Of a stretch of DNA of 64,000 nt, positions 17,801-55,200 are shown one piece after another. The notes below the pieces were generated by a model. The model saw only the letters and a program-made list of their open reading frames with translations. It was not told the DNA's origin and made no database searches. A program made the translations under genes and the position numbers. This stretch comes from Haliotis asinina. Lineage: Eukaryota > Mollusca > Gastropoda > Lepetellida > Haliotidae. The stretch is from NCBI RefSeq assembly GCF_037392515.1, contig NC_090281.1:45980645-46044644 (forward strand), in the 5' to 3' direction. How positions within the stretch are numbered: the first letter of the stretch is position 1; each line of letters opens with the position of its first letter.

Positions 17801-20800
17801 GTCCCTGCTGGCGTTGAAACCAGTTTTATTCTTTTCTGTGGAAACCAAGGCATTAACAAGGCATCTATCATTCTATTTAAAACAGCTGTAAACAGCATCG
17901 TACGAAGTAACTATCAAAACATGGATTCCGTTTCTATCTTTTGTTTCCTTTCTTTTTTATGATCCGAATGTTTCTTTCGTGGTCATATTACGATTTTAAT
18001 TATTGTCTTAAAAACGTTTTAGACCGTAACCCAAAGTCTTCCGTGGTAATAAACCAACCCTTTTGTATATTGTAGAAAATATTACTAGGGCATTAACTAA
18101 TTTAGATACGAATTGTGTTTTAAATATCAATATTTGACTTTCAAACCATTCAGACCGTAACTCTCCTTAACCTACACTTTCATGACAACAAACAAATCAT
18201 AATACACATGTTTAACGAAGCATATGATTATCGTTGCAGGCCTCCGTAAGCTGGGGTCAGATCTTACAACGATGGCATGGGCGTACAGATCAATATGTCA
18301 AGTCCGACTTTACCATCAACTACTTAGGGTACTGGACGGACAATGGTGAGGATATCGGAAGATATCTTGATTACATTTTCCACACTGTACCGACATTTTG
18401 ATTTTACGAAGTCAGTTTACAAAAGAACATTTAAACCAATAATGGAAATACTACTTTTTCTGCACAGACTTGTATTATTTCACTTGCTCTTATTTGAGAC
18501 TGTTACGACGTATGACACACCACCATACATGAAAAATGGGTATGTATGTATGTATGTATGTATGTATGTATGTATGTATGTATGTATGTATGTATGTATG
18601 TATGTATGTATGTATGTATGTATGTATGTATGTATGGATGGATGGATGGGTGGATGGATGGATGGATGGATGGATGGATGGATGTATGGATGGATGTGTA
18701 TTGTGTGTGTGGATGTATGTATGTATGTATGTATGTATGTATGTATGTATGTATGTATGTATGTATGTATGTATGTATGTATGTATGTATGTATGTATGT
18801 ATGTATGTATGTATGTATGTATGTATGTATGGATGGATGTATGGATGGATGGATGGATGGATGGATGGATGTATGGATGGATGGATGTGTATTGTGTGTG
18901 TGGATGGATGGATGGATGTGTGCGTGCGTGCGTGCGTGCGTGCGCGCGTGTGTCTGTGTATCTAACAGACAATGCTTGAAAGTCTTTGCAAGAGGAACAA
19001 CAACTCAATAGAACATTTTGTTTGTGTAGGTGCATATTACTATTACGTAACGGAGAAAGGCAAGAACCACCAAGATACAATGTTGGATATCAAGAGCTAC
19101 ATCGTTCAGATAGGGGTACCCGTCAGGTTTGTAGACTTGCAACATTTGAAAACCCCTTTATGTCATACAGCAATATTTTACAGAGAAATATTAAAGTGTA
19201 CGACATTGATGAAATATGTTTTACATGCTTAGTAAATTCTTTGTCCTGGGTAGGACAATCATCATATTGTTGATCCACTGTTGGTTCATTTCGTAATCAT
19301 CTTTACTGAAGTGGACATTACAAAGACCGTGACCTTCCTTTCATTAAAGTGTGATGTTTATTATCTAGAGACAATAATGTATCTAAACAAAAGAATTGAA
19401 CGCATGTGGTACAGTATCAAAACAGTTGCAGTGATGGTGCTGGTTAATTGTTAATTGTCGTTGTAAAGGCTGTGAATAACAAGTGGGACAATGATCATAA
19501 TCAGGTTTACTTCTTAAAGTATTGGTTTATTTCAGTCAGGATCTGTGTTTCAAATTACTTCGTGGCTTACTTGGCAGGTTTATTCAGTATGACGAATGGT
19601 TGTACAACTGGAACAATGACCTTTTAATTATTGGTCATGTACGTCCAGTTAGACAAATGGTGGTACTAGTAGTACTATCAACTTGTTTACTTGCCAGGGA
19701 TAGTTAACACGACAAATCACCTGATTATTTATTTGTCAGGTACATTCAGTTCGACGAATGGTGGTACTACTGGTACTATCAACTTGTTTACTTGCCAGGG
19801 ATAGTTAACACGACAAATCACCTGATTATTTATTTGTCAGGTACATTCAGTTCGACGAATGGTGGTACTACTGGGACAATGATCATGGTGTTGTAACGTG
19901 GACAGCTCAACCAAAGGTTTTTCCTAATGGGATGCAGTAAGATATTTTCCAGTTCATCAGCTCAGTAAATACTGGATAAATCTTTTAAATTATGTGGATA
20001 TCATATTAATGAATATAAGTACTATTATTACATTAGTTTATTGATATAAACTGTAAATGACATGTATAATATATGTGTGAAATCAAAATATGTACACTTT
20101 CATGTGTTAAATGGACTGCATGTATTGAATTGCGACCAACTGTATTGCCTAAGGACCATAATGATGCGCTTCTTCTTGGTTTAGTTAAGCGGATACATTT
20201 TCTACTTGTTTTATTTCACCTTTTTTATCAAGGTGGCTTTATAACAAGACACAGTACCCGGTCGTGGCCCACAGCATGTACTGGTAAGCCGGGTCCAGGA
20301 ATCTGATATATTGTTTTTTTCTGAATTCCGATGCTTGACGGAAGCAGTAACGTTCTTCGGAGTTAGGTTTAGATATTTATTTGTAATGATATTGTAGTGT
20401 ATTTTTACGTGCACTTGTTACAAGTGTTCCAGGATTTGCTGTCAGAAACTAACTCAATTTCTACATGCTACTTCATCCTGTGAGAAAGGATTCACGTCGT
20501 TTCTCATGTCCGAAACATGTCTTAGTAAATACCAACACGCACAGTGTGATTCTGATGATGGAATTGCATGTAAATATATAATAGGTTCTTTGTCATTTAT
20601 TATTCTAGGTCAAGCAACACAACCTACGCAACTGCAAATGGAGGAAAGTATGAATTCGTGATCGATGGTCCAAAGGCTCTACCACTAGAAGAGGTACTGC
20701 TGTTGTTGGCTACGATGTGAATGTTATGCAAACAATCCTCTTCTTCTTCACCCAAGCATCGCTTGCTCCGGGAGTTTAGTTTGTTTAATGTCCCCGACGA

Positions 20801-23800
20801 ACCCTTAAACGTATTCAGACATTCAGATATTCTTCTCTTCACGTTTCAGAGATTCTGGACTGATTTGCTCGCCGAAGCAAGGGACTGGGGTCTCTTCGTC
20901 TACGAACAGGTAATTACTCTTACATATATATTACCAAATTCTTAACTACAGCTGCTTCATACAGGACAAATTTTATAGACAGCAACTTCTTGAGTTTATT
21001 TTCACGACGTATCGGGGCAGATCCTAGTCCCCTCATCAGGTAGAGCTCTACTGAAGAGTAAAGCTTAACTGTTAACTCTGCCCATGACCTCACAATGCTT
21101 ATGACGTCACAATGCTATGACGACAACATGATACCAGTAACTAACAGGAATACTATGACAACATAATAGAATTAGTAGTGAATGGTTACAACTAACATGA
21201 TTCATAGAATGAATATATCTATGTAAGCATTCACTACTAATTCGATTATGTTAACAGGAATTCTATTATGCTAACAGGAATAGTGTGACAACATAAACTT
21301 CTAAATGCCTTTGAGGAATTACAGCTACTTCATCCCACGGCGTATATTTATTTCACTTGTAATCTTACGTTTGTTTGATTTCTGTAGGATTATCTCGGTA
21401 CTGAATTTGAAGCAATCAATAAGCTTCTGACTGACATTGACCTTGGCCGCCAATGGCTGACTCAGATGGGCAATGGGGCTGCCAAGAACGGACTGACCAT
21501 TCAGTACTGCATGTCTCTGCCGAGACATATGCTGCAGTCTCTGGAAATACCTGTCGTCACGCAGGTAAGAGCACCCATGTCATGATACGGTTATTATTGG
21601 TGAATGTGGATTTATACTGAATTTGATAGCGATTCCAACATGTAGAGTATTTCTTCTGGAAACAGACCATATACGACCATTGCCATTTCAAACTTTGCAA
21701 AATTACGTAACATATGTTTTAGGCTCGGGTAAGCCATGACAACCGACCAAACACTGACAACTGGAAGATAGGCGTGTCATCGATATTTGCTTTGTCTCTG
21801 GGCGTTGCTCCCTTTAAGGATAACTTTTGGACAACCAGTGTTCAACCCGGAAATGGCTACAGTATGTACAAAAAGAGTTCTCAGTCGTCGTAACATTATT
21901 TCCAATTCCATTCCATCGACCGAAAGAACGTATTCTCAGTCTGACGAAGTGTGTAATATTAATAATCATAATTCGTAGAGGCAGAAGGTTGATACGTATT
22001 GAATGTGATGCAGATTTATCGGAACCCCACACAACGTTGAATGCTGTGGTTGCAACCTTAAGTACAGGCCCAGTAGGAATTAGTGACATGATTGGAGGCA
22101 CGAACAAGACACTCATCATGAAGTAGGTTGGATGTTAATGTTTAACTCCAAACTGTTCTCTCATGTGGTTCAGTATCCTGGAGGACTGTATCTGTTTACT
22201 CACTACTGTAATAAGTTATCATTTAGAACACCTTCACCCATTATTCATATATTTAGTGTTAATTTCCAGTTTTGACTATCTTATATCTCTGATTTCCCGT
22301 ATTAATTACTTATCTCTCTAGTACAGATTGGGTTTTTAGGCTCTTGTTTTATGTCTGTCTGTTCTACATTCTCATTTATTACTGCGTTTTTATACAAATA
22401 TTCTCACAAATATATGTTACTAATGTAAGTGTTATTTTGCTCTCCTGTTTTCATGATTGAATACCCATATGCGTGTTCCTTCTTACGTTACGATTTGGTT
22501 TGCGTCAATTTCGTATTAATCATGTATTATCACTGCTACCTGTCCGTCTACATATCACCATTGTCAACTCAACTTTTTTACAGATCTATAAATGCTGATG
22601 GCCTGATATTGAAACCATCGCGACCGGCGACAGCAATTGACAACAGGATACGGAGGGTAACATATGTGTTCTTCTCCTACAACCCCTGGGTTTGAACACT
22701 TAATTTTCACGAGAAGAGCTTTTAATTCTATCGTTGAAGAGCACGAATGAAACGCTTGAGTAGCGAAATATGCTGAGGGAATAAAATAAAGCGCAAGTGT
22801 TCCTTTAATTTTCCCACAAACCTTATATCGAGCAAATTGTGAAGACATCTGCAAAAATACAAAGGAATCCCTTTTCCTCCTGTATATTCAGTTTTAATAG
22901 ACTTAGTAGGGGTTATATGTGTAAATTTGCTTTCAATTTATCCAAAGCACGGTAAGAAAGTACATTTCCCCTGCCCCTAAAATGATAACATGGCATGACT
23001 CGACTTACCGACGGCATATAACATAAAACTGCATATTCTAACACTTTGAATTGGCATGGATTATAGCAAACGCAAAAGTTATTGTGGCAGGCAAACAGAA
23101 TCAGTGTCAAGCCTTTACTCATGTAAATGAACTGTTTTAGCAAAGAGAAATGTCCCAGGGTATATATTCAACAGTGGAAAAAAATAGAACATTTGCAACA
23201 TGCAAATGAGCCACGACACAAAAGCAAGCAAGTGTGTCTACCTGGTGTATTGGTACAAGCCACCGTCACCATCACCTCACGACGACGAAGATCATTCACA
23301 ATTCAAGTTCCTGCAGCGTTGTTGGGGATTCGGATGACGTTGTTAATGTCGCTCCTTTTTATCCTAGGCATGTTCAGTGGGAGACAAATCATTGGATCCT
23401 GTGAAACAGATAACAAATTAACACCGTTCTCATCAAGATACTGCTGTACAACGTGAGCAACGTCTTATTGCATTGAAACTTCACTCCAGTGTTGTAAAAG
23501 CGGTACAGCAGCGAAATATCGTCTTGGTTCCATTTCTTCACAAAGGCGTCTTTGCTGCATATGGGAGGACAACTCCTCCTCCTACAAACCAAATGGCCTA
23601 ATGTAACGATCAAACGTGGTCTGCGATCAACTCCATGATCTCTTAAAACGAATTCATTCACAATGTTAAAATGAACAAAAAACGTTCTTGTCACAATAAC
23701 TTTTGGAGGTGATAGTACCTTGAAGGATCAGAACGCTCCTTATGGTACATGTTCTTTTCTAGATTTTGAGGGCTCGTGGAGAAGTGCGTGGTTGCCTCCG

Positions 23801-24894
23801 AGTAAACCTTCAAAGAACTGACAGGTTCTTACAATGATTGTCTTATAGATGGCCTGGTCAGACTTTGAGGGTCCTGATGGAGAGGTATGGTCCACTTATT
23901 CTGATTTTGGTGGAAGGAACAAATACGGTATCATCCTCGCTGCTGATCTCCAGGGAAGCTACACCATGACACCTTGTATGGCTGGATATCAAGGGGTAGG
24001 GCAGTAGGGTCTTTCTCCCTTTAATCGATTTCAAAGCGTATGTTCAAATTTTCACAAATATACAAATTTACCTGTAAACATAGTCATGTATGCAACTAAA
24101 ATACACTTTATTGTTTCCAGTTTCCAAACTCCATGGTTTTCCCATCCAGCAACCCCAACAAGATCCAGCCCTTGACAGACCCTCAGCCTTTGACAATGAG
24201 TAACTGTTCCATGACTGACTTCTGTCTCTTCTATGTATCACCTGTACTGAAAGTCAATGGGTATGTGTATTCCTTCATTTCAATCACAATGTGACATCTT
24301 TCAGAGGACTGCTACAAACGTAACATATGTCAAACGTTATCAACCAGTGAATATGCTTATTGTTGGGGGAACAGGCGACTAAAGTGTTTGAAGTGCTCTC
24401 TGATGTTTGTTGTTTAACTCATCAATATTCCAGCTATATGACAGCTGTCTGTAAACTATCTCATCTGGACCTGACAATCCAGTGACCAACATATAAAAAA
24501 TCTATCTTTCCAATTGGAATGTCATGACCTTTGTCAAGTTAGTCAGCGGACTTGAGCACTAGTTGCCTCTTACTACGAGCATGGGTGGCTGAAGATCATT
24601 TCATATGTTTTCTGAACGTCTGAAAAATCATTTTAGCCTAAACAGCTATTGGTTTATTACAGCAAACAAGTTCTCATCCAGGGGGAGTTGGACAAGTGGG
24701 TGCCGATGTCACCCCAGAGAGTGACAGATATCAACATTGCCGATGACATCACCATCAGCCTGACTGGTGCTGTCCACGAAACTGTTTCCTTTTGGTTCAA
24801 CGTGGATGGTAAATCCTCACCTGTGACCTGTACCCTCGGAGCAGCGGGACTAGCCACTCTCAGCTTCACAGCAGGCACATGTCGTGGTGCATAA
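11875..24894 (+). CDS. Gene A: secreted GH-D-like (alpha-galactosidase-fold) protein
   Basis: Seventeen exons join into 764 codons: 11875-11926, 13774-14096, 16449-16603, 17608-17860, 18240-18345, 19030-19126, 19841-19936, 20233-20283, 20609-20693, 20850-20909, 21388-21564, 21723-21861, 22014-22122, 22584-22656, 23849-23995, 24121-24260, 24663-24894. Residues 1-17 ([17 protein letters not shown]) form a signal peptide. About 18-180 is beta-rich, with possible N-glycosylation sites. The central part has LFVYEQD (E425, D427) and ARVSHD (R487, D491); I compare these with the nucleophile strand and the R-x-x-x-D acid/base motif of clan GH-D glycosidases. [10 protein letters not shown] and [13 protein letters not shown] resemble the raffinose-synthase barrel end. 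Residues about 688-764 form a C-terminal beta domain. All introns are GT-AG except intron 4 (AAG|GCATCT). Substrate unknown; the family call is by remembered motifs. Intron 2 holds a Penelope-like element. Confidence 0.82.
12113..12765. repeat. Repeat cluster around a 59-bp palindrome (intron 1 of A)
   Basis: A segment with TTGGTTTGGGTATTTTGTC and GGTCGGAA(G/A)GTCCGCT occurs at 12113-12180 and 12655-12725, with a third partial match at 12727-12765. They flank the perfect inverted repeat at 12509-12643. This looks like a small fold-back or nested non-autonomous element. Confidence 0.65.
12509..12643. repeat. Perfect 59-bp inverted repeat
   Basis: Arms 12509-12567 and 12585-12643 are exact reverse complements with a 17-bp spacer. 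A transcript of intron 1 could fold into a 59-bp hairpin. Apparent ORFs across it on both strands are mirror images of the arms, not genes. Confidence 0.93.
14326..14727 (-). repeat. Left pseudo-LTR of the Penelope-like element
   Basis: 402 bp, reverse complement of 15668-16069. It carries the hammerhead-like motif on the minus strand at about 14369-14402. Confidence 0.9.
14369..14402 (-). ncRNA. Hammerhead-like ribozyme core (left pseudo-LTR)
   Basis: The minus strand reads CTGATGA, then helix II GGAGT-loop-ACTCC, then GAAAC and GTT. This is the hammerhead core order reported for Penelope-like elements. Helix III would be ACGU with no loop, so folding in cis is doubtful; ACGU is self-complementary, so a dimer is possible. 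Activity is not shown by sequence. Confidence 0.6.
14914..15720 (-). pseudogene. Penelope-like RT C-terminus plus GIY-YIG nuclease remnant
   Basis: A 268-residue open stretch. Its first residues come from the pseudo-LTR, then [15 protein letters not shown] and [14 protein letters not shown] match the region following the catalytic aspartates of Penelope reverse transcriptases. The GIY-YIG part is [17 protein letters not shown], followed by [13 protein letters not shown]. Homology to the family C-terminus continues beyond this stretch, so the reading frame is broken at least once. Confidence 0.85.
15668..16069 (+). repeat. Right pseudo-LTR of the Penelope-like element
   Basis: 402 bp, reverse complement of 14326-14727, joined directly to the truncated reverse-transcriptase remnant at 15667/15668. 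Confidence 0.9.
15993..16026 (+). ncRNA. Hammerhead-like ribozyme core (right pseudo-LTR)
   Basis: CTGATGA at 15993-15999, helix II GGAGT/ACTCC, GAAAC at 16019-16023 and the cleavage triplet GTT at 16024-16026. CAC before the core can pair with GTG after the triplet as a 3-bp helix I. The weak helices argue for low or dimer-dependent activity. Confidence 0.6.
16709..16818 (+). mobile_element. tRNA-derived SINE, decayed (intron 3 of A)
   Basis: The A-box-like TAGCTTAGTGGTTGAAG is followed by GTCACCCCGAAGACTTGAAT at the B-box position and a GCGGCGTAAAATCATACTCACTC tail region. Same family as 48398-48556. Confidence 0.6.
18540..18960. repeat. (TATG)n/(GATG)n microsatellite in intron 5 of A
   Basis: Long runs of TATG alternate with blocks of GATG and a TGTGTATTGTGTGTGTG motif that occurs twice, ending in TGCG repeats. 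The two-block layout suggests internal duplication. Long YVCM and HTYI reading frames here are artefacts. Confidence 0.95.
19577..19840 (+). repeat. Tandem copies of the exon 7 start (gene A)
   Basis: Upstream of exon 7 (19841-19936), TTCAG(T/A)(A/T)(T/C)GACGAATGG and its preceding 3' splice site recur. Two of the copies have a 101-bp period that includes TTGTTTACTTGCCAGGGATA. Only the last copy continues into the conserved HGVVTW coding part, so the earlier ones are exon fragments inside intron 6. Confidence 0.8.
20965..21300 (-). mobile_element. Old Penelope-like pseudo-LTR relic (intron 10 of A)
   Basis: The minus strand has CTGATGA, a GGGG/CCCC helix II, GATAC and GTC (21006-21039), the same order as in the young element at 14.3 kb but with GATA in place of GAAA. 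CAACTTCTTGAG here matches CAACTTCTTTATGAG there. No coding part remains nearby. It is a relic of a different family. Confidence 0.55.
23140..23700 (-). mobile_element. Tc1/mariner transposase relic (intron 14 of A)
   Basis: The minus strand reads [20 protein letters not shown], followed by frames reminiscent of the SPDLNPIEHxWD region and downstream tail of Tc1-type transposases. The reading frame is broken several times and the key motif is not intact. Called from pattern memory only. Confidence 0.45.
24409..24596 (+). mobile_element. Abalone-type SINE, diverged (intron 16 of A)
   Basis: Contains TCAATATTCCAGCTATATGA, GACAATCCAGTGACCAAC and AGTTGCCTCTTACTACGAGC, matching the family member at 26055. 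Confidence 0.8.
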
Positions 24895-28096: not shown

Positions 28097-28559
28097 ATGT
28101 GCAATAAGACCTGTATATTTCTGTCCCTGTTGCTCTGTGCTGGTAAGTACATGTATGTATGTAGTATTTTTTTTCACATTTTGCCATACTTTCAAGATAG
28201 AAAGAATAAATCACTTGTCACTTCAAACTCGTTTGTGGTTGTCTTTACATACCTACTTTATCAGATTCGACACCCCCCCAAAACAGGTATATCTGATGGG
28301 ATCTTAATGGGAATCTTACGCAGTCAAGGCCGTTTGAACCTACCATTTTCTCTAAAGTAGGACCAGTCACGGTGTTAAAGCAGCAAAGCAGGATGTGGCC
28401 CTTGGTTTAAAATTAAGTAATTTCGTTGTTGGAAACCAACATTTAACACTTCATCATTGAGCAGGACAAGTCCAGCCTATTCAACGGTTTCGTTGCGATT
28501 GAAACAAAGTACATCGGCTTACTTGAGCAGCAAGTCGCAACTGACACTTACTTCTCCAG

Positions 28560-28800
28560 GGAAACACACTAGATCACTACAAGCATCAGCTTAAAGTGTG
28601 GTCTACAACGTCAGCTGCGACTGTGGCTATGAATTAAATTAATGAAAAATCCAGACCACTCATAATATGCGTCAAAGAACGTAAGACATCCTCCAAACAA
28701 TGCAGACACCAAATCAGATATTTCGGAACACATCACTAAACCTGACCTAGAAATTACAAATGGGCCGTTTTAATCCCTCTTTCAATAGAGATGAGGGCGA
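28560..28800 (+). mobile_element. Penelope-like GIY-YIG relic (intron 1 of B)
   Basis: One frame reads SVVYNVSCDCGYELN, then EKSRPLIICVKERKTSSKQC, then in a shifted frame SDISEHITK. This matches the GIY-YIG nuclease and the following SEH motif of Penelope-like elements. The copy is broken in several places and belongs to a different, older family than the element at 14.3 kb. Flanks from about 28450 to 28960 may also belong to it. Confidence 0.6.
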
Positions 28801-29184
28801 TTTCATCCCATCAGCTTACAACCACCTAATCCGCTAATAATTATCCACTAAACACACTCTGGCTTATCATTACCTTCCTGCCTGAGATTCCTCACCTCTA
28901 GTTCCTAGTTTCCCACAAACTGTTCCCCAACCTTATCTTTTGCCTAATTACCTTACATCCACAACTTGTCGTGGTAATTCCACTCACCTCAGTTATGCTA
29001 CCTTAGCTCATCGTCATGCTATTACAGCTCTTCGTGTAATTTATTCGTGTTTTGTTTCCCACCCTTGTTATTGCAATGTTATTATATTCACATGTATCTT
29101 GACATAATTATAAACTTTTGGGCATCCTTAAAATCTTGCCATCACTATACCACCAACTTCTGGAATGCAACCGACCTTGACATA

Positions 29185-29324
29185 ACTCTGTTATCTTTTC
29201 AGATAGTAAATATATATGGGCAGTATATGTTCATCAAGTGGAGATTTGGTTTGAATCGACAACGGTTGGGAGATGTGCATTACGACATGTTTATTATTAC
29301 TTTTCCCTCTGTTGTACTGTGTTG
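29185..29324 (+). promoter_or_regulatory. Second promoter and exon 1 copy inside intron 1 of B
   Basis: CTGTTATCTTTTCAGATAGTAAA followed by a TATATATGGG box and TTCATCAAGTGGAG mirrors the promoters of A and B. At 29273-29324 an ATG opens 17 codons plus one base (MCITTCLLLLFPLLYCV), exactly the 52-nt exon 1 of A, C and D. The next bases are TACACA instead of GTAAGT, so the donor is lost. It lies only 124 bp before exon 2. Confidence 0.65.
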
Positions 29325-31886
29325 TACACAATTGATAACAATTAAATACACAGTAATGAATAGAGCCACTTGCATTTTTACTTTTAATCTGATTATCTTG
29401 AGTATAAAGGAACTTACGTACTTACTTCCCCAGTTTTCAAATCAGCAGTCTCCGAAGGTAAGCAGGACTTTGCTGTCAACGTTAACAATGACGGCACATA
29501 CAACGTCGTGGTTCAGGGAGATGTATGGTTGAAGAGTGCTCCCACCTTCTTCAGAGCTGATGGTCAAGTGTTCTCATCTGCTGATGGATCTTTGAAGCTG
29601 GTCAAGAACACTCAGTCCAGTGGTGAGGATGTCATAGGACAGTGGGAGGCCAACAACTTCTTGTACCAGGCAGGGTCTAGTCAGATCGAGGCCAGTTTTG
29701 TACAGTACACACCAGATCCGAGCATATTCACCTACAACGATCCGGCCTTACCGTTCATGTCAAACAGGTGGGTTAACATAGGGCAGTAATGAATTCAATA
29801 ATCTTCACGCATACTAGGATACGCACAGAACAATACTGATATGTAAACATAACTGTAAGAAAGCAAACACACCCAGTCAATCATGCTCACTTCCAGTAAT
29901 CTGGTTTGACTTAGACTTTTGATTCAGGTGCACATTCTGTGGTGGATGGCACGCAACGCCTTAACATTTGCGTTGTGCAATGATCCTAATATGGACATGT
30001 GCAATCTGAAAATTATTATTGTTGTTGAGGCTAACTGTCTTAAGAAGGACAATACTAAATATTGAACAATATTTTAAATAGTGGACAGATGAACATGTAA
30101 AAAAGAACACGAAGTTTATACAGATCATCCAATGGCAGCTATCTTCACAGAAAGCTGCACTTCTACAGTCCATGAGAACAATAATGTTCCATCGTGTTTT
30201 ATGGTGTACACAATCAATAGGTTTAATTTCTAACAGTGTCAGTGACGGACATTGCTTGTTGAATGTTTTGCAAATTGTTTCCTATCTGGACTCTTTCACA
30301 TGGATCTTTAAGCAACCAAGTCTCGAAATGTACCTTGAAATACTGTAACACATCCTCTACATAGGTTCATAACTGACACGATGTTGGAAATACACGCTCT
30401 TTATCTTTTCTTTCATCAATGACGACATCAGCGTTACATCAATGGAGCAAACAACACCGCCTCCAACAGCAGTGACTTCACCATTTCCGGCTTTCCTGGG
30501 CTTCTAATACAAGAGTCAACCATTCCGTTGGGATACCTTAGTTATGGAGGATCTCAGGGTGGCAGCATTCATCTCACTGTTGGACAGTAAGTACTCTTAC
30601 GTGAAAATGTTAAGGTGGTTTATATGTTGAACACAAGAAAAGCATGAACTATATTTTTTTTCTGCCAGAAAGAGTATGTCAAATAACGTTACGAAATGAA
30701 CATAGATGCAAGTCTACGTTTTTCCAAATCGATTGACAATAAGCATCCCACTGACCTGAATATGGGTCCACATCCACGTCCAAAATATCAAGTAAACAAC
30801 CTCCGATTAATTTAATACGAGCGGCGTGTTATGACATATCATTTTCAATAAGATTCAATTTTTTTACTATTTTGTCTAAGATGGAGACCATCATCATTTC
30901 GAATTGACGATGGGACAGAAGGTGGACCCCTGACATTATTTGACCGAGTGACGACTGCAAATACACTGATTATCTCCCCTGCGAGTCGATTTATGTCCTC
31001 ATCAATATGGCGTCAGAACTCCAGCACAGGAGGAGACAATGTCTACTGGGGGACGATGGGAGGAGTTGAAAATGTCCCTTTTGGCGTTGAAACCAGTTTT
31101 ATTCTTTTCTGTGGCAATCAAGGTATCAACAAGGTAACTAATATCATCTTTAACATACCTGTTAAAAAGATATTAGTTCGTCTTTTATGAACTATTTTAG
31201 ATATCAGTGTTTTAAATATCAGTGTTTTACTTTTAAACCATTCAGACCGTAACTCTCGTTAACCTTCTACACTTTCATGACAATAAACAAATCATAATAC
31301 ACATGTTTAAGGAAGCATATGGTTATCGTTGCAGGCCTCCGTAAGTTGGGGTCAGATCTTACAACGATGGCATGGGCGTACAGATCAATATGTCAAGTCC
31401 GACTTTACCATCAACTACTTAGGGTACTGGACTGACAATGGTGAGGATATCTGGGCATGCCTTGATTTGAATTCACTGAACAATAAATGGTGTAGTTTCC
31501 GTTTTCTAAATTGTACCAACACACCGTTTCAACCAAACCAAACCAATTTGCACAGATTCCTCTAAGAAGATAGTTCAAACTTTTAAAAAAATGCATGCAA
31601 CAAATCTGAAGGTGTTAGAAGACTGACAACCATACCATATTGTTGTGCGATTTGTTCTGTAAACGTGTATCAGGGCGTTATATCTGATGGACAATTGAAA
31701 GTCTTTGCAATTTGAAACAAAACAATCCGAAACAACCATTTTTGTGTTCAGGTGCGTAATACCATTTCCGAACCGAGGAAGGCAAAAACTACCAAGACAC
31801 GATGTTGGATGTCAAGAGCTACATCGTTCAGATAGGGGTACCGGTCAGGTTTGTAGACCTGCACATGCTTTACAATCATTACGTTT

Positions 31887-32067
31887 ATACGATTCAGTTC
31901 TACGAATTATGGTACTACTGGGTCAGTGACCTTGCTGTTTATTGGTCAGGTACATTCAGTACGACGCGTGGTGGTACTACCGGGGCAAGGATCTTTTTTA
32001 CTTACCAGGTACATTCAGTTCGAAGAATGGTGGTACTACCGGAACAATGATCTTGTTTACTTGCCAG
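31887..32067 (+). repeat. 59-bp tandem copies of the exon 7 start (gene B)
   Basis: Units starting GTACATTCAG at 31950, 32009 and 32068 (the last is the real exon 7) are spaced exactly 59 bp apart, and a more diverged unit lies near 31890. Each has its own CAG acceptor with TTGTTTACTTGC-like pyrimidines. 59 is not a multiple of 3, so including an extra unit would shift the frame. Confidence 0.88.
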
Positions 32068-35000: not shown

Positions 35001-35896
35001 GGTTCAAATTAAATAATACCGACGAAATACACAACCTTTGTCTCTGAGTAAACATTCAAGGAAGTGAAAGGTTCTTGTAACAATTGTCTCATAGATGGCC
35101 TGGTCAGACTTTGAGGGTCCTGATGGGGAGGTATGGTCCACGTATTCTGATTTTGGTGGAAAGAACAAGTACGGTATCATCCTCGCTGCTGATCTTCAGG
35201 GAAGCTACACCATGACACCTTGCATGGCTGGATATCAATGGGTAGGATTGTAGGTCATTCTATCAATTCTCGAGTCCAGGAGGTTACTAATAGTGTTTCG
35301 GTTTTCACAAATAGACATAACCGTATTTCACATGTGCGCTAATATTTCCAGTTTCCTACATCCATGGTTTTCCCAGCCAACAACCCCAACAAAATCCAGC
35401 CCTTCACAGACCTCCAGCCTTTGAAAATGAGTGGCTGTACCATGACTGACTTCTGTCTCTTCTATTTATCGCCTGTACTGGCCGTAAGTGGGTAGGTGTA
35501 TTACCTCATTTCAACCATATCCATGCTTAATGCACGTGTAAAATATCAACTGGTGAATATATATGACCCTATTACTTTTGGTTAGAAATGTGACTTAAAG
35601 TGTTTGGAGCGAACATTCTCTGTCTGAATGTCAGAAGAAGTCAAAACAATAATACGATTATTTTCCCGTGCAGCAAACAAGTTCTGATCCAGGGTGAGTT
35701 AGACAAGTGGGTGCCGATGTCACCCCAGAGAGTGACGGCCATCAACATTGCCGATGACATCACCATCAGTCTCACTGGGGCTGCCTACGAAACTGTCTCC
35801 TTTTGGTTCAACGTTGATGGTAAATCCTCACCTGTGACCTGTAACCTCGGAGCAGCAGGGTTAGCCACTCTCAGCTTCATAGAAGGCAAATGTTGA

Positions 35897-41600: not shown

Positions 41601-44600
41601 TGATGAACTCACCTTCATTTCTCTTTGTCACAACACCAAAACACAACGTATGGGATGTACGTGCAAATTTCGGTAGCCGAGTACACGTGCGTGGGGTGTC
41701 ATTCTTGATCTTAAGGATTTTCAAGAAGGTCAACAAATCACTGCAGACCATATTTTCTTGCATCACACAGTTGTTATTGTTTGTTATTAGCCTGTATGTT
41801 TGACACTGAAAATCGTACACATGCACATTTCACGTCATATGCCAGTCATCTTTCGAGGGTGATTACCGTACAAAAAAACCTGTGGTTATAAGGAAGGGCA
41901 AGTAGTGAAAAAATCATTATTATCATATCAGCATTGACTGACTCCGACATGTCTCCCAATGTTTTCAATCGCAAATTAAAAATGAAGTTCCCCCACTTCT
42001 TAGAAAATATATTGATATAATGTGCTTGCTTGCAACCAGCGTCCTTTTCACTTTTGTCCACACAGGTTTTTTTTTCCCTTTTCAGGTGCGTATTACTACT
42101 ATTTGACAGAGAAAGGAAAGAATTACCAGGACACAGTGCTTGACATCAAGAGCTACATTGAACAGCTGGGGATACCCGTCAGGTCAGTACATTTACACAT
42201 GTTAAAGCACTAATGGTACAGTAATGGTTCAACTACATGAGTATTGATACCACTTCATAACAGCCAAGCCGGTTACTTCGTTTATTCAGTACTTCGAGGT
42301 GTACTTCGAGTTGGGACAACAATCCTATTGTTTATTTGCCAGGTACATTCACGAATTTTGGTACTACCAGAACTACATAAATGAGCTTGCCGTTTGTTTG
42401 CCAGACATCCGTTTTGATGAATGGTGGTGTTACTGGAGCAATGACATTCTTGCATATTTACCAGGTACATTCAATAGGAGGAATGGTAGTACTACTGGAA
42501 TAATGACCTTGTTTATTTACCAGGTACATTCAATAGGAGTAATGGTACTACTACTGGAATAATGACCTTGTTTATTTACCAGGTACATTCAATACGAGGA
42601 ATGGTAGTACTACTGGAATAATGACCTTGTTGTTTATTTACCAGGTACATTCAGTACGACGAATGGTGGTACTACCGGGACAGTCACGGTGGTGTAGTGA
42701 GCTGGTCAGCTCTACCAAGCGTTTTCCCGAATGGAATGCAGTGAGATGAGCTTTTGTATCTTTACAGAACGTTTCAAATACTGCGTTATTCAGTTTATCC
42801 CTTTCACTATCATTAAAATATCTCATCACCCCCAATCAGTACTACACACCTATCACTATATACGGGTATATGTAACTACACCACACAAAAGTTTATCTTT
42901 TTGCACGTGAAACAGATACAGGTACGTACATTAGAGTGCAGTGTATATACAACATGTGATGGTGTGATTATACCCTTTCAACATACTTGGTCGTGATATT
43001 TTGAGTTTGGCGTCATTAACGACATTCTGTGTTTTCCGCACGTATCCTTGGATGAAGGTGGCTTTACAACAGGACGGAGTATCCGGTCGTGGCCCACAGC
43101 ATGTACTGGTAAGGATTCGAGTATTCAGTTTAGTCAATATTTGCAATTACGATATATTTAATGTATTGTTTTACGATGCTCCATATATATCATTACGAAA
43201 GCTATGGATATTTCTCATACTTCTCAATTCTCAATGTCGGCAATATCCCAAGAACTAATATACATCTCGGAACAATTACGTAAGATTCTAAGTCAAATGT
43301 AAATACATTTATCAGAACATTATACGGGCATTATGTCATGCTTTCAAGAGTTCTTTGGTATGAATGGTGTGCTTTAATGCGCATTGTACTTTGAAGTAAA
43401 TCCATGTCTGCATGCTTCCAGGTCCAGCAATACAACATATGCAACTGCTAACGGGGGAAAGTATAAATTTCTGATTGATGGCCACCTGTCATTACCACTG
43501 GAAGAGGTAAAAACACAAGATATATGTTTATTTTAGAAAGTAATAATAATTACACTTTGCTATTTACCATTTGCCCAGATAAATAGCATGTATCCTGGCT
43601 TGGTCGGGAGTCTGCATGTAATTATTATTACTATATTTGCAGAGGTTTCTTGTGTCTGAAAAATGTGTTTCTTTTATTGTCGCGATGTTGTGTAGCAATC
43701 ACTATCAGACGTGTTCGCCATCCATTTTCAGAGATTTTGGACTGAATTGCTTGCTGACGCGAGGACATGGGGTCTGTATGTTTACGAACAGGTAATACAT
43801 CTCAGAGACAATTTGACAAAGTTAAATCTCAAATCTTATAACAGATCACACATGCGTGTGATGGTTGGTATGTTTCATTTCTGTAGGATTTCCTCGATGA
43901 AGAATTTACTAACGTCCAAACATTCCTGACTGACATTGACCTCGGTCGCCAATGGCTAACTCAGATGGGCAATGGTGCTGCCAAGAACGAACTGACCATT
44001 CAGTACTGCATGTCCTACCCACGACATATGCTGCAGTCTCTGGAAATACCTGTCGTCACACAGGTGAGTGTAGGGAGCGAGTAAAAGAGTCTATTTAACG
44101 ATATTCAAGCCTTATTAAGTTAGAATACCTAAGACTTGTATTCGTGAGCGGGAGACAGAATGAGAAAGTTTTGAAAATTATTTAAATAACATCGATGTGT
44201 TGATGTAATGACAGAAGAGATGCTAGGAATATCAATCTATGATTACCCTCTACTTTCATAGTATCTAGCAGCGAGTGTCAAGGAAGGGGTGTTTAGTGAC
44301 CAAGATGCTAGGAATATCAATCTATGATTACCCTCTACTTTCATAGTATCTAGCAGTGAGTGTCAAGGAAGGGGTGTTTAGTGACACAAGATGCTAGGAA
44401 TATCAATCTATGATTACCCTCTACTTTCATGGTATCTAGCAGTGAGTGTCAAGGAAGGGGTGTTTAGTGACCAAGATGCTAGGAATATCAATCTATGATT
44501 ACCCTCTACTTTCATAGTATCTAGCAGTGAGTGTCAAGGAAGGGGTGTTTAGTGACACAAGATGCTAGGAATATCAATCTATGATTACCCTCTACTTTCA

Positions 44601-47571
44601 TAGTATCTAGCAGTGAGTGTCAAGGAAGGGGTGTTTACTGACCAAGATGCTAGGAATATCAATCTATGATTACCCGCTACTTTCATAGTATCTAGCAGCG
44701 AGTGTCAAGGAAGAGGCGTTTGGTGACACAAGATGCTAGGAATACTAATGTATAAATACTGCTAACACCTAGCCGTAAGTGTCAATAAATGTATGCCAAC
44801 AATAAGAAGGCAGGGATCCACCAGTTACCAATACCGAGACCGCCAAGGAAACATGTATTAAATAGGCTTGACCATTTAACAAATTGTTTGGAAACGTTTG
44901 TTTCAGGCTCGCGCAAGTAATGATTATCAACCAGACACGACCAATTGGAAAATAGGTGTCACGTCACTCTTTGCTTGGGCTATCGGCGTCGCACCTTTCA
45001 AGGACAATTTTTGGACAACCGGTGTTCAACCTGGAAATAGATACAGTGAGAGAAAACTCCCGCTTCTTTAACCTTACCTTTTGAAACACTTTCTCTTTGT
45101 AAGTTCTTGATTCTGTTGTTTGTTTGTTCGTTCGTTCGATTGTTTGTTTGTTTGTCCCGCACTAAACAGTATTCTAGCCACATAGCAGCCTGTAAATAAT
45201 CGAGTTTTTACCACATAATCTAGTGATCAACAGCATGACCCTTTATTCGACATGTGTCATCATAGTCTACAAGCCTGACCATCCGATTTCGTTCCTTATG
45301 ACAAGCATTGTTGCTGAAGACCACGTGTCTCATTTCAGAGCATTTTCCAGTGGAAAACTATACCTCCCTGAATGCCGTGGTTTCAACCTTAAGCACAGGT
45401 CCAGTAGGAATCAGTGACATGATTGGTGGCACCAACAAGACACTCATCATGAAGTAATGTTGATGTGTTTTTAAGGAGTGATTATTTCACAAATATTTTC
45501 ACATTTTTGTAGAATCGTTTTCTGATGTTTTATAATGTCCTGTCTGGCTACACCCTTTGGACTATTTGGTCATTATGTAATACTACTTTAACATTACTGA
45601 TTCTTTGGTTTTCTCTGTTTATCAGTCACAATTCCTTTGTGAAAAATATATTCTTCTATATTTTTTATTCATTACTCATTTGTTTTTCTTATTGCTCTTT
45701 CTTGACATTTTGTATTTGTTATTACTTTACTAAGTGTGCTATCCATGTATTTTATTACCTGTCTGTCTATTTCATATTGATTTTTTTTGAGTGTGATTCT
45801 TAACAATCGTCTGTATTTCAACTGTGTTTGTTTCTGGGTAAACCTTTATATTATCTAAACATCTGGGTTTATCAAGGAAGAGAATTATATTGACATCAAC
45901 AGATAACTCTTTGTGTATCACTTTTAAAACCTGATCTTATATTTGATCACCACTGAACTTATTGGGTACTATACCAGCATTTAATATTTTTGTTACATTT
46001 ATCTAAGTATTCGTACCTATATTTATTCACTGTCACCATCTACAGATCTGTAAATGCTGACGGTCTGATCTTGAAACCGTCGCGACCAGCGACTTCAATT
46101 GACAACAGAATACGGAAGGTACCTGTTCACCATGTGTTCATTTGTAATGTCCTTGAGTTAGGAATGCACATGTATCAGTTTGATCAGTTGATCAGTTTCA
46201 TCAGAAGCATGATTTGAGTCCCATCGATTTTTTTCCACCGACGTCGTGCAAACGCAAATTTCTATTTTATTAGTTATTTACCAAAGTATTATTTTTGCTT
46301 CTGTTCGATGGGCGGACGTTTAAAATCGTCGTTGCGTGGCGGTTACTTGGGTGAGGGAAATGAATTTCAGTGAAAGATAGGAAAGGTAATTATTGCTTCA
46401 GTGCTTCGATGCAAACTGACAAAAAATAGTTACCTTGCATCTAGAAAAGTTAGTCTACATTTTCTTTTCAGGACTATTTTTTCTGATTTAATGTGAAAAT
46501 AGTATATACCTAAGCAACCTCATTATTCAGACTACGCATCGTTTATTTTACCCATATCATGTATATGAACCAGTACTGGAACAAGAAACCAGACTGTGAA
46601 AAGCTGGTCTAGAGAATGAAATGACAACGGGATACAACTGATAAAATGTTTGGGGCTCACAACGACAACGGACTGTCGTGAATAACCATACTGTGTGTTT
46701 TCTAGATGGCTTGGTCAGACTTTGAGGGTCCTAATGGTGAGGTATGGTCAACGTATTCGGATTTTGGAGGAGAGAACAAATACGGCATCATCCTCGCTGC
46801 TGATCTAAAGGGAAGTTACAGCATGACTCCTTCCATTGCTGGATATCAAGGGGTAAGACATCTCTACTGTCATTTGTTTTCCATGGATTACTGTTTCGGT
46901 TTTAGTAGATATACAACTGGAACTACGTTTGTACCTGAAATTATGCTGGCATTTTCAGTTTCCTAGCTCCATGGTTTTCCCGGCCAATAATCCCAACAAG
47001 ATCCAGCCCTTGACGGACACTCAGCCTTTGACAATGAGTGGATGTACCAAGGCTGACTTCTGTCTCTTCTACGTATCACCTATATTGACCATCAATGGGT
47101 AGGTGTATTCCTTTCTTTTAAAGTACGGCATTTCTCTGTCGAGGTGAAACTGCAGGTACAAGTATCAGTACCTGACAGTGAAAGTCAGTGATTACATTGG
47201 TGATAACAGTTCCGATAAGGATGAAAGCAGAGATTGTCCGGATGCACCTGACCTCGGACAACTCTTGTAGTTGGAACAAGATCGCCGCTCAATACGGTTG
47301 CGGCGTGGTTTCAGAATGCTATGTATTTTCTCACTTCAGCAAACAGGTTCTGATCCAGGGTGAGTTGGACAAGTGGGTGCCGATGTCACCCCAGAGAGTA
47401 ACGGACATCAACATTGCCGATGACATCACCATCAGCCTCTCTGGAGGTGTCCACGAAACTGTCTCCTTCTGGTTCAACGAGGATGGTAAATCCTCACCTG
47501 TGACCTGTACCCTCGGAGCTGGAGGAACAGCCAGCCTTAGTTTCACAGCAGGCACGTGTCGTGGTGTATAA
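38605..47571 (+). CDS. Gene C: secreted GH-D-like protein
   Basis: Exons: 38605-38656, 39577-39899, 40388-40542, 40868-41120, 41356-41461, 42086-42182, 42645-42740, 43058-43108, 43422-43506, 43732-43791, 43887-44063, 44907-45045, 45339-45453, 46046-46118, 46706-46852, 46959-47098, 47340-47571. They join into 766 residues, or 762 if exon 13 uses the CAG 12 bp downstream. The signal peptide is MCPKTCICLLLFLSLAV. Candidate active-site residues match gene A in number: D427 in YEQDFLDEEF and D491 in ARASNDYQPD. The latter closely resembles RASDDFYP of raffinose synthases as I remember them. Exons 3, 11 and 12 are closer to gene D than to A or B. All donors are GT. Intron 11 carries a 0.5-kb minisatellite. 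No lesion seen; catalytic activity is inferred only. Confidence 0.83.
41570..41765 (-). repeat. Dispersed repeat, copy 2 (intron 5 of C)
   Basis: Reverse-orientation homologue of 25128-25335. Both carry short, non-conserved reading frames, which argues against a shared protein. Confidence 0.55.
42343..42644 (+). repeat. 59-bp tandem copies of the exon 7 start (gene C)
   Basis: GTACATTCA units start at 42343, 42465, 42524, 42583 and 42645 (the last is the real exon). Spacings are 122 (two units, one lacking GTACATT), 59, 59 and 62 bp. The inner units share AATA(G/C)GAGGAATGGTAGTAC, unlike the units in B, so the arrays expanded or were homogenised separately in each gene. Confidence 0.9.
44219..44760. 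repeat. Alternating 85/86-bp minisatellite (intron 11 of C)
   Basis: GATGCTAGGAATATCAATC starts at 44219, 44304, 44390, 44475, 44561 and 44646, with a last, diverged unit at 44732. Spacings run 85, 86, 85, 86, 85, 86 because units end alternately in GTGACCAA and GTGACACAA. The true repeat is therefore a 171-bp dimer. Confidence 0.95.
45144..45322 (+). mobile_element. Abalone-type SINE just before exon 13 of C
   Basis: CCCGCACTAAACAGTATTC, AATCTAGTGATCAACAGCAT and CCTGACCATCCGATTTCGTT match the family. Its end lies about 16 bp before the exon 13 acceptor CATTTCAG, so it makes up the branch-point region. Confidence 0.75.
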
Positions 47572-48297: not shown

Positions 48298-48397
48298 GGG
48301 GGTGTAAATAAATAAAACAAAATTAAACCAAATATCAGGTATATCCGCTTGGGATGTCAGTCCAGACTGGAAGAAGTAATTTTACGACGGTGTCGTA

Positions 48398-49287: not shown

Positions 49288-52200
49288 ATGCCCCTTAATA
49301 CCTGTATATACATTTTCCTGACTTTGTCGTTCTGTGTTGGTAAGTATACTTGCTTCATCTCCAATTCCTGACAAAAGCCACGGGTATGTTTCACTCAAAA
49401 CTCTCTTTGTGCGTGCGTAATAACACAATTAGAAAGTTGGAAAAGATTTGCTGAATATGATTGGAAGACAAATACCCGTACGTTTGCAAATAATACACTA
49501 ATTTTACATTCATGTGACAAGGTATCTGAAACTGCATATCGTATTCATGGTTGCAATGTGCCAATGTGTTTCAGAATTCACTTGTTCAAAGCACTCTCAC
49601 GTCCAAACAAGGAACCTCAGATAACGAATCAAGTATTTTTAACAGCTTGGTACTGGAAACATGCCATCCTCCAGCATGACAAGACCAAAACGTTCATCAT
49701 TTAATGTTTTGACTGCCGTTGGCATGTCTCCATGGACTGAAAGCTGTTCGTTTTTAACCTATTGCAATTATCTGCTTACTTATCTGTCTGCCTACTTACC
49801 TATCTACCTACCTACTTGCAGTCTCCGAAGGAAAGCAGGACTTTGCTGTGAACGTCAACAGTGACGGCACATACAACGTCGTGGTTCAGGGAGTGGTATG
49901 GCTGAAGAGCGCGCCTACCTTCTTCAGAGCTGATGGTCAAGTGTTCTCATCTGCTGATGGATCTCTGAAACTGGTCAAGAACACTCAATCCAGTGGTGAG
50001 GACGTCATCGGACAGTGGGAGGCCAACAGCTTCTTGTACCAGGCAGGATCCAGTCAGATCGAGACCAGCTTTGTACAGTACACACCAGATCCAAGCATAT
50101 TCACCTACAACAATCCGACTGTGCCGTTCATGTTGTTCAAACAGGTGAGTAAACATGGCTTACAGTCCGACTCAAAAGCGGACCTATGAATTGCAGTCTA
50201 ACGTGAAAATTAAAAAACATATTATGATCAACATAATCAAAACATCAGACCACCTTGGTAGGCTGTTTTTCAGATTTTAAACCCTTTAAATAAAAAGGTT
50301 GTTAAACAAACTAACATTAAATTATTGACACAGTTAACTGTTTGTTACGTGGAAGGAGTGCAAAGAAAGTTACAGCCAGGTGTTTGAGAAAGGATGAAGA
50401 CGGCACAGCACAGGTTAATGAATCAATAACTTTGTCGGCACTTCTGCACGTGTTCCGGGGACATTTGACTGTTCGTTTCTCTGCACTCCTCTCACACAAC
50501 AAATAATAAACTGTGTCAGAATACTCATCAGTGTTTCATTGACCATTTTGTGTTCATTAGTTCTCGTGCTACATTACAGCTCATCGGTCCCATTTTGACT
50601 GTAAGATTTATTAATACTTTCTTGTCTACAAACGGATGCTGGGATGAGGTTCCTGTCATACTATCAAGCAAAATCACCATTTTTCATGATCGCAACATGC
50701 ACGTTGTATCATGCCCCTGTGAATATTTTTATCATTCTGTACCGTCCATCAAACTGACACTTAGACAAATCCCTCGCTGGATATTCTTGTTCAGATGTTA
50801 GAATGACACTTGTTTGTTAATATCATTCCAGTGCACATGTTTCTCCTTTTTACTCTCTATTTGCTTTGGCTAACATACGTTTGTGAGTTAGCAACAATAA
50901 GATGGACATTTCACACTTTTACTGAATCAGGGACTCGAACCTGGGAACCAGTGGGTTATCTCATTATTTTGCCATTATGCTCAGTGTTCCTGTCCCAACG
51001 CTTTTTTCTAAGACTGATTATATTTTCAAACCTATGATAATTGCAGTGACTCATCTTAACATTCGATTGCATAACATTTGTTCCTACAAATTGTCTTTAT
51101 ACACACTTCATGGGTGTATTTTTTACTCTCTATTTGCTTTGGCTAACATACGTTTGTGAGTTAGCAACAATAAGATGGACATTTCACACTTTTACTGAAT
51201 CAGGGACTCGAACCTGGGAACCAGTGGGTTATCTCATTATTTTGCCATTATGCTCAGTGTTCCTGTCCCAACGCTTTTTTCTAAGACTGATTATATTTTC
51301 AAACCTATGATAATTGCAGTGACTTATCTTAACATTCGCTTACATAACATTTGTTCCTTCACATTGTCTTTATACACCCTTCATGTTTTCTTTCATCAAT
51401 GATGGCAACAGCGTTACATTAATGGAGCAAACAACACCGCCTCCAACAACAGTGACTCCACCATTTCTGGCTTTCCTGGGTTTCTAACTCAAGAATCAAC
51501 TATTACGCTAGGATACCTCGGTTACGCTGGGCTGATGTTTGGTAGTGATGGTCTGAAAGCTGGACAGTAAGTGCCTGTTGAAATGTCACTGTTGAAATGT
51601 CACTACACTGAACATAGCATACATCCGAGAAAATCCTGTCTGCAGCAACCCGTCCTTGTCAGAGGTGACTAACAGGATGGGATGGTCAGATTTGCTGACT
51701 AGAATGAAGCATGCTATTTTACTATGCCACGAAAAAAGGAGTGGGATATAGTTATATCCTATTTTCTCATAAACCGTTATGGATAGGTAAACCAAATTTG
51801 GTATCTGGTTTTAGGACATGCATGACATGATGGAGTCCGAAAACGGAGTTATGACCTTTGTCATGCATTTCTCGATTTATTGCACGGTATCCCCAATGGA
51901 GACAGATTTTCTCAGCAACCGTTATAGACAGGGACACCAAATTGGGTATGTTTTCAGGACATGAATGTCGCGATGGAATCAAATAGGAACAGAAGTTGTG
52001 CCGGCGACATTGATTCTTCTTGTTCCTTCTGCAAAGCTCGATTCACATGATGTGAAGCATCGAATTTATTGACCTGACTCACATATTTACCCACCGCCGC
52101 TATATTGCTGAATTGTTCTGATGTAGTATGCACATGGAACAAGCGCATTCATCAAGTTCATAAATGCTTTCCCATTCCAGCCTTTTTATCGATTCAGATG

Positions 52201-55200
52201 GGGATCAACGTCGTTTCAAATAGACGATGGGCTTGAGAGTGGGCCGTTAGCCATATTTGATCGTGTGAAGACTGCAAATACCCTGATTATCTCCCCTGCA
52301 AGTCGGTTTATGTCGTCATCAACATGGCGTCAGAACGCCAGCACCGGTGGGAACAACGTCTACTGGGGCACTATGGGCGGCGTGGAAAACGTTCCGCTTG
52401 GTGTGGAAACCAGTTTTATCTTGTTCTGTGGAAACCAAGGTATCAACAAGGTACGCATTCCTTAACCTTAAACAAAATGTTTAGTCACTACATTTCCCGT
52501 TCATGCCGCTCAGTCGAAGTTGAAAGGGCTTTCGAAAATATTTCCAGGTATTCAAGGTTCGATTCAACCGAAAAATGATGAATAAGGACATCAAAGGAGA
52601 CACCGATATTTAAAGCTGAATTCAAATGAACTTTCAAAATAATAACATTTTTTTTCATTTTTGTTTTCCTTAAATACTTTATGTATATATGTTTGCAGGC
52701 TTTTGTAAGCTGGGGTCAAATTTTGCAAAGATGGCACGGGCGAACAGACCAGTTTGTAAAGTCCGACTTCACAATCAACTACCTGGGATATTGGACAGAC
52801 AATGGTGAGCATCTTCACCGAAATAATTTCGAGTCTTTGTCTATGACCGTCAACCGACGACCGTGGGGAGTGTTTTCTCGACTTCCATGTCAATCATAGT
52901 TCCTCACCTGTTTCCTCTATAGCCAAGTGTGATTCCGGAGGAACGGAAACAGCGTTTTACTACATATTTTCCTATTTTATTGAATGGATGAACACTTCCG
53001 TCCACATTGTGCCGATCTGATCTGACACTGCCGCATGACTCACAACACACTGAGCACAATTCTCAAACACTCAACTTCGTATGGTGATAGACCATGTTTA
53101 CATTGTATTGTCCAAAATGCTATTCTCCTTTTAAGATTATCTGCTTGCTTGTTTTAACTCACTCTGTGATAATCTAGTGAGTTTTTTTTACTGTTCTTTG
53201 TCGACAAGGTTTTATATATTACATGTATGTATTATGAAATATGACTTTAAATCTTACTCACTCACTCAATCACACTAATATTCAACTGATTTAATGTGAC
53301 AAACGCATTTGGATTTCACGACATGTCGTAAGAACGTTTCAGGACATAGCTCCACGGGCTGTTCCAATGTTACATATACAGCAGGACCGTGAATGGGCGT
53401 TGGTATTCCTGGTGGTTTCTAGGGCTTTGAAACTTTCCAACACTGGAAACAGAAGCCATAAAACCCTTCCCACATCAACAGGAAACGGCTGGTGGAACAG
53501 CACTAGCACACATTCAGGTGAAAATCAGTACAGCCAAAAGAGATGACCCCGGAATGCCGTTGTGCAAAACAACTTTATCGCTGAGACTATCGTAAGGCTG
53601 TGTTAAGGTATGACATTTACGATCACCTTCGCGATAAGTTTGTTTTGTACGATGGCAAGCACCTTGTCAGCTGCTCTTCCATCACTGGCACTACGTTGAA
53701 CATAGCACAGGTTTACACGATGGTTTCTTGAACAACTGGTTTCGTGATCGATCAAAGAAGGACAAATTCTAGATTCTGCTGGCTTCAGAGGTTTCAGGAC
53801 CATGTGTCACATTTATGTTTTGTGCTCTTATCCAAAGTCGAGATATTGAATCATTTGTCGTTCTCATTTGAATCCACACGGTCTACACATTGCGATAAAA
53901 GGTACTTGCTGATGGAAGGTACTTTAAGCCGTGTCGAACACTGATACACAAAACGATGAAAGGTAATGACATCCATTGATTCAGTGGTATTTCTCATAGT
54001 TTGTAGAGTTTTAGCCCACCTAAAAACGGAAACACATGATAGATGCATGAAGTGTTTCCAAGACAAGAGTTTTGTTCATCATTGTTTGTGTTCCCGAAAC
54101 AGCGAATAGGCTTTGGGGAGGATACCATGAAACCAGGTACTTTGGTAACATTCCAGAATATGACATCTAAGCGTTCTCTCCCGACTATGTGTGTATGTCT
54201 GTAAAATAAGGTACTGCATTCGTCATTCAGGAGCGTACTACTACAATGTGAAGGAGACGGGAAAGAACTACCAGGACACGGTGCTTGACATCAAGAGCTA
54301 CATTGGGCAGCTCGGGGTACCCGTCAGGTTAGTATCATTTATCCAATCTTAAATGTAAATCGTGCAGGACATTCAACGTGTTGAAACCACTTGGCCTTTC
54401 TTTCTTACATTTTGTACAATGTGTTGTGGTTCTGCTGAGACAATGAACTTGTTCTTTACATGCCAGGGTGGTTCTACTGAGGCAATGACTATGTTGTCTT
54501 ACTTGCAAGGGAAAATTCAATATGATGCATGCTGCGTCTACTGAGGCAATGACCATGTTGTTTTACTTGCCAGGTACATTCAATATGATGCATGGTGGTA
54601 CCACTATGACAACGACCATGGCGTTATCACGTGGTCAGCTCAGCCAAGCGTCTTCCCCAATGGAATGCAGTGAGATGTCTTTTGAGTGAATGTGTTTAAT
54701 CTGTTTCATTCATTGTATTTAATTATGACATATGATGGTCATAAAATGTTTCACTCCTGCCATCTTGTACCATTAAATGTCCCTAAAAGGACAGTTGAAT
54801 TTGAGGAGTTGGTACAGCATTTACTAACTTTATGAAGAACAACTTTAATTTCGTAAGTGTAGCGAATACAGACAGTTGTATCATTGTAAAGCAGGAATGT
54901 TTCCATATTAAAATATGTACAGTTAGTAATGATTTTAGTTACATGGATTGCAAATATTGTTGTATTTAGGATATATTGTTGACTATTTCCACACATGATA
55001 TTTTTTGTGAAACTAACACGTCAGCTTGTTTTACGTATCCTCTGATAAAGGTGGCTTTATAACAAGACACAGTTTCCCGTCGTGGCGCACAGCATGTTCT
55101 GGTAAGCCCGTTTCGGATTTCACATGCATTCATTTTCTTCCAAGATATATGTTGTTTCACAATTTCAGAAAGGTTTTCACTGTGTTGAATATTCCATCAC

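Follow-up and report, generated by a model that had tools for sequence, protein, structure and literature searches.

Tandem copies of the exon 7 start and its acceptor in clustered Haliotis asinina paralogues: a probable mirage-type minisatellite

We analyzed a 64,000-nt stretch of the Haliotis asinina genome (contig NC_090281.1, positions 45,980,645 to 46,044,644; hereafter the window, numbered from its first letter). It contains four tandem paralogues, A to D, all on the + strand and each modelled with 17 exons. The spliced model of gene A (11875–24891) used AG acceptors and gave an intact frame of 764 aa; genes C (38605–47571) and D (49288–60925) had intact frames of 766 aa and 765 aa, each followed by a stop codon. 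Gene B (28097–35905) was a pseudogene: its exon 2 fell 4 nt short of the length seen in A, C, and D, exon 6 contained a TAA, and exon 16 contained an early TGA. The exon 4 donor of gene A (17858–17866) was GC within a poor consensus (AAG|GCATCT); the donor was GT in B, C, and D. In all four genes, the end of intron 6 held an array of repeats, each unit being a copy of the start of exon 7 with its acceptor. This array is probably a mirage, that is, a minisatellite spanning an intron-exon boundary.

Tandem Repeats Finder (TRF) reported arrays with a period of 101 bp in gene A (19624–19874), 59 bp in genes B (31947–32111) and C (42455–42675), and 63/64 bp in gene D (54473–54620). Each ran into exon 7, which was placed by the spliced models at 19841–19936 in A, 32068–32163 in B, 42645–42740 in C, and 54574–54669 in D (all +); in gene A, its position was supported by protein continuity with prokaryotic homologues. 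When the 64 kb were searched with a profile of the unit (E < 1e-4), all 16 matches fell at intron 6/exon 7 of genes A to D; four were the exons themselves, and the remainder were distributed as three copies in A, three in B, five in C, and one in D. Counts that included decayed or shortened units told by eye were five, three, six, and three, respectively. The array of gene A (19578–19840, +) comprised units at 19578, 19639, and 19740 and two identical shortened units of 42 bp (19698–19739 and 19799–19840), so that 59 + 42 bp made up the 101-bp compound unit. In gene B (31887–32067, +), a decayed unit at approximately 31887 was followed by 59-bp units at 31950 and 32009. Gene C (42280–42644, +) had six units of 59–62 bp at approximately 42280, 42343, 42405, 42465, 42524, and 42583, the first recognized by eye. 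The three units of gene D (54404–54573, +), at approximately 54404, 54467, and 54511, were all decayed, and only the last passed E < 1e-4. Unit lengths were therefore 59–63 bp in B and C, 101 bp (compound) in A, and approximately 63 bp, with additional shortened and decayed units, in D. As a control, the 64 exon starts of the four genes were each compared with their own intron: copies were found at the four exon 7 starts and at none of the other 60. The initial annotation had described such a repeat in all four paralogues, with 59-bp units in B and C, 101-bp units in A, and decayed units in D, and each of these points was borne out. An assembly artefact is unlikely; the units differ from one another by many substitutions and are present in several genes.

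Outside the window, the array was also present in the neighbouring genes P and R, and a unit could be recognized by eye in Q. A search of the window's own assembly (1.14 Gb in 159 contigs) revealed units at two further places upstream of the window, and the same contig carried many additional paralogues. Eighteen stretches were fetched, of which 15 contained exon 7 (it was absent in O4, S, and N1b); three more stretches near the cluster yielded no additional exon 7 or unit. The unit profile found copies besides the exon in P (three) and R (two), but it missed even the exon 7 of J2, J3, K, and T, and comparison of every exon 7 boundary with the intron of its own gene is the better test for such distant genes. 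By this comparison, P had three copies and R had one; the remaining 13 of the 15 further paralogues, Q included, had none. The truncated unit of Q was seen by eye and had a weak profile match (E 0.18). Twelve paralogues showed no array (M1, M2, N1, N2, O1, O2, O3, J1, J2, J3, K, and T).

The duplication junction was common to the arrays of genes A to D, P, and R, where exon 7 sequence ending in AATGAYC was joined to the acceptor tract, as AATGAYC-(TTG)-TTGTTTAYTTGCCAG with small variants. The array-free genes M1 and M2 had a single matching acceptor, ATTGTTGTTTTGCTGCCAG, apparently the ancestral state. A codon tree of 12 genes separated A to D, P, Q, and R from M1, M2, O3, N1, and N2 (Shimodaira-Hasegawa approximate likelihood ratio test 87.4, ultrafast bootstrap 83); the repeated codons were omitted, M2 was short, and the tree was unrooted, with O3 and N1/N2 taken as outgroup. 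Q paired with R (100/100), and scoring Q as array-free adds one extra loss. Given the common junction and the grouping of the array genes in the codon tree, the array was most likely born by one duplication and then inherited, rather than born repeatedly. In the array-free genes, exon 7 started as AG|GT in M1, M2, and N1, as AG|AT in N2, O1, O3, J1, J2, K, and T, and as AG|TT in J3, and O2 had no clear AG. Since M1, M2, and N1 share the AG|GT start and have no array, the donor-like start seems to be older than the array. 

Among 11 intact proximal units, exons included, core identity was higher within genes than between genes (0.864 vs. 0.762, P = 0.002); this subset was picked after the units had been seen. 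The corresponding values were P = 0.07 for all 18 units and P = 0.09 for the 14 pseudo-units alone, and whole units gave P = 0.009, P = 0.04, and P = 0.05 for the 11 units, the 18 units, and the 14 pseudo-units, respectively. The within-gene homogenization that had been proposed was thus evident for the intact units, but it was weak over the complete set. The best match of the gene A exon 7 start was a unit of gene B. In gene B itself, the unit at 31950 was 98% identical to the exon 7 start and shared with it the codons GCG and AAG, which are absent at these positions in A, C, and D; the coding exon therefore appears to take part in exchange between units. Faster coding change in exon 7 was rejected, because its first 44 nt were not unusually diverged when compared with other 44-nt windows (pair mean at the 29th percentile; C–D pair at the 9th).

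In the 23 pseudo-units of the seven genes, the acceptor tail was conserved no better than the core (identity to consensus 0.754 vs. 0.749; Wilcoxon test, P = 0.80), which gave no indication of selection on the acceptors. AG was kept in 19 of 23 pseudo-units, GT in 14, and both in 12. Both AG-bearing units of gene D, and two of the three units of P, had AG present and GT lost. The array was also retained in pseudogene B. Overall, nothing in the arrays seems to demand a function.

The protein encoded by gene A had no Pfam match (in a sequence assembled before the models were final), and a PDB sequence search returned no useful match. Among animal collections, the search for homologues covered this genome alone. 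Outside it, relatives of the central part of the protein were encoded at 19 prokaryotic loci (L001–L019; best identity 45%), carried by metagenome genomes of bacteria and archaea that included Armatimonadetes, Bathyarchaeota, Myxococcales, and Lokiarchaeota. Three of these homologues had no Pfam match above the cut-off, two of the three showing a sub-threshold match to raffinose synthase, and NCBIfam gave no match for two. The AlphaFold model of the best homologue, L001 (mean predicted local distance difference test score 84), matched a plant alkaline alpha-galactosidase and structures of families GH36 and GH97. Given this resemblance, genes A to D probably encode glycoside hydrolases (sugar-cutting enzymes). 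The prokaryotic counterpart of the gene A exon 7 start was typically YxQLDSWWY, in which D, S, the first W, and Y were invariant across 15 aligned prokaryotic sequences. This alignment fixes the frame of exon 7 and shows that the conserved protein results from splicing to the last acceptor.

Splice sites were scored with matrices built from the 64 real sites, homologous sites being left out for each test; the matrices are small and partly built on homologous sites. An upstream acceptor scored 7.7 in gene B (2.8 for the real acceptor) and 6.4 in gene C (7.3 for the real one); in gene A the scores were equal, and other upstream acceptors scored lower. As a donor, CAG|GTACAT was at the 50th percentile of the matrix scores, and its predicted U1 duplex (−7.1 kcal/mol) was such that 53% of the 64 real donors were weaker or equal; the exon 6 donor of A and B was close to it (−7.0 kcal/mol). 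In genes A, C, and D, 11 upstream acceptors with an AG were tested, and every one of them led to a stop codon more than 1 kb ahead of the final exon junction. It had been argued that inclusion of a unit would shift the frame, and the lengths of 59, 101, 62, and 64 bp are indeed not multiples of 3; however, the acceptors located 42 bp away in gene A and 180 and 240 bp away in gene C were in frame and met a stop within a few codons. Since the upstream acceptors tested run into a stop, a productive transcript would require either splicing to the last acceptor or a second splicing event at AG|GT. Starts of the AG|GT type were shared by exons 6, 8, and 9 in the majority of these genes, where no array was present.

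The window contained several other repeats. Upstream of gene A, TRF reported a 51-bp tandem repeat of approximately 8 kb with more than 100 copies (3534–11568), over which stop-to-stop frames reached 372 aa. Intron 11 of gene C contained an 85-bp array of six copies (44218–44744), and intron 2 of gene D contained a two-copy repeat of 273 bp (50847–51385), both also found with TRF. A frame of 277 aa on the − strand (14914–15747), within intron 2 of gene A, resembled by eye the terminal portion of a possibly Penelope-like reverse transcriptase carrying a GIY-YIG-like tail; it had no Pfam match above the cut-offs.

We consider it likely, with a probability of roughly 0.76, that the array is a mirage that was born once, is nearly neutral, and persists in approximately seven paralogues in which the last acceptor is normally used. 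The anatomy of the array, the common junction, the distribution among paralogues, and the stop codons were observed directly; a single gain, the choice of splice site, neutrality, and decay are inferred. A single tandem duplication would have occurred at the intron 6/exon 7 boundary in a gene ancestral to the clustered paralogues A to D, P, Q, and R. The duplicated segment would have consisted of the last 15–20 nt or so of intron 6 (the tract and the CAG acceptor) and approximately the first 44 nt of exon 7, and TGTTGT, a sequence present in both exon and acceptor region, may have directed the joining. Each descendant gene would have inherited the copies. Unequal exchange, slippage, or conversion would then have amplified, homogenized, or deleted units gene by gene, sometimes together with the coding copy, and distal units would have decayed like intron sequence. 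Exon 6 is most likely spliced to the last copy, the sole productive acceptor among those tested. The upstream acceptors would probably be used rarely, their products being lost to nonsense-mediated decay or re-spliced at CAG|GTACAT.

Several observations weigh against this interpretation. An upstream acceptor can outscore the real one, as in gene B (7.7 vs. 2.8), so use of the last acceptor is not explained by its strength. The retention of AG (19 of 23) exceeded that of all 43 core dinucleotides, a comparison biased by the setting of unit borders at AGs where possible. The unit of Q was recognized by eye, and the searches gave at most a weak match (E 0.18). Support in the codon tree was moderate (87.4/83). 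In a protein tree of 17 paralogues, a group uniting the array genes appeared in 34% of bootstrap trees and was thus unresolved.

Other explanations were considered. The arrays might be tandem dual-specific sites that are removed stepwise, each CAG|GTACAT serving as acceptor and then as donor with the exact frame restored. The median strength of this sequence as a donor (−7.1 kcal/mol, against −7.0 for the exon 6 donor of A and B) favors such a scheme, as does the fact that exon 6 ends in CAG, so that the junction would be re-formed, and a tandem array of such sites is in use in human UBC (PMC10809524). Nevertheless, we regard it as unlikely: both AG and GT remain in only 12 of 23 pseudo-units, GT has been lost with AG kept in the D and P units described above, the intron removed would measure 59 nt, below the shortest of the 64 introns of these genes (95 nt), and the AG|GT starts of exons 6, 8, and 9 lack arrays. 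The suggestion in the initial annotation that CAG|GTACAT is at once an acceptor and donor-like, as in recursive splice sites, held for its donor strength; recursive use seems unlikely, given the incomplete signals, the acceptor tails no better conserved than the cores, and the short introns. In a related scheme, which we judge quite unlikely, the array would survive because it is self-correcting. Exon 7 apparently began with GT before the array arose, so a wrongly used upstream acceptor could be re-spliced at the same point, fresh copies acting as dual-specific sites and the frame being restored. If true, this would protect the gene when repeats expand at the edge of an exon; the same D and P units, with AG and without GT, argue against it.

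The upstream sites might instead be poison acceptors, purposely used to produce decaying transcripts and lower expression. All 11 acceptors tested do give an early stop, and several upstream acceptors score well; but the tails are no more conserved than the cores, pseudogene B also has an array, and copy number and decay vary strongly between genes, which makes such a role very improbable. Equally little weight is given to independent expansion in each gene through a local hotspot, the origin that had been proposed from the recurrence of the repeat at the same spot. Unit lengths and sequences do vary by gene, and the 101-bp and 59-bp amplifications are gene-specific, so gene-specific expansion stands for the later amplification; the protein tree, in addition, leaves a single origin unresolved. 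Birth anew in each gene does not fit the one junction in A to D, P, and R, the decayed distal units, or the codon tree, in which the array genes fall together and a single gain is the best reading, and M1, M2, and N1 have the AG|GT exon start yet show no array.

Mirages were described in amphioxus, in Adh3 and the globins BflGb6 and BflGb9, as minisatellite-like copies of an intron 3′ end and the 5′ part of the following exon (PMC3087553); in BflGb6, the repeated segment comprises the end of the intron and the 5′ part of exon 2, and many units have AG/GT (PMC3087553). The arrays of genes A to D likewise are tandem repeats across an intron-exon boundary, and many but not all of their units keep AG (19), GT (14), or both (12 of 23). 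The amphioxus clusters show concerted evolution with diverged edge units (PMC3087553), a pattern partly seen here (P = 0.002 for the 11 intact units; P = 0.07 and 0.04 for all 18). Data on Adh3 and globin reverse transcription-polymerase chain reaction suggest that regular splicing is undisturbed in amphioxus (PMC3087553). The Haliotis array differs in belonging to another gene family, in having apparently been inherited by several paralogues, in its unit length of 59–101 bp, and in being known from the sequence of one assembly. By analogy, it appears to be a further case of this known kind.

Other systems were less similar. Human UBC has tandem dual-specific splice sites of demonstrated use, and AGGT at its unit borders could, as in our arrays, act as donor or acceptor (PMC10809524). 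Its monomers are coding and in frame (228 nt; PMC10809524), whereas the units described here are intronic and do not keep the frame, all 11 upstream acceptors tested running into a stop. In potato RdRp, a tandem duplication of an intron 3′ end and exon 5′ part, similar to that proposed here, made a new intron that was seen by RNA sequencing (PMC4974935); in Haliotis, the array is known from sequence, and the conserved protein is obtained with just one of the acceptors tested, the last. The joining of an acceptor to a donor is shared with the recursive splice sites of Drosophila, whose ratchet points are ultraconserved and lie mostly in long introns (PMC8605326). In contrast, the present units are decaying, GT being kept in 14 of 23, and lie in short introns (intron 6 of A to D, 219–714 bp). 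The human IFI6 (6-16) minisatellite reportedly has short units at an exon border and, unlike the Haliotis array, acts on the donor side. As in Haliotis, it supplies several splice sites (PMC4526556).

Boundary-spanning repeats have been proposed as a source of new introns and of dual-specific splice arrays (PMC3087553, PMC10809524). In Haliotis asinina, one apparent duplication, several descendants, and close array-free paralogues occur in a single genome, so that the birth, turnover, and decay of such a repeat may be readable along the gene tree. Its near-identical competing acceptors would also provide a setting for testing splice choice.

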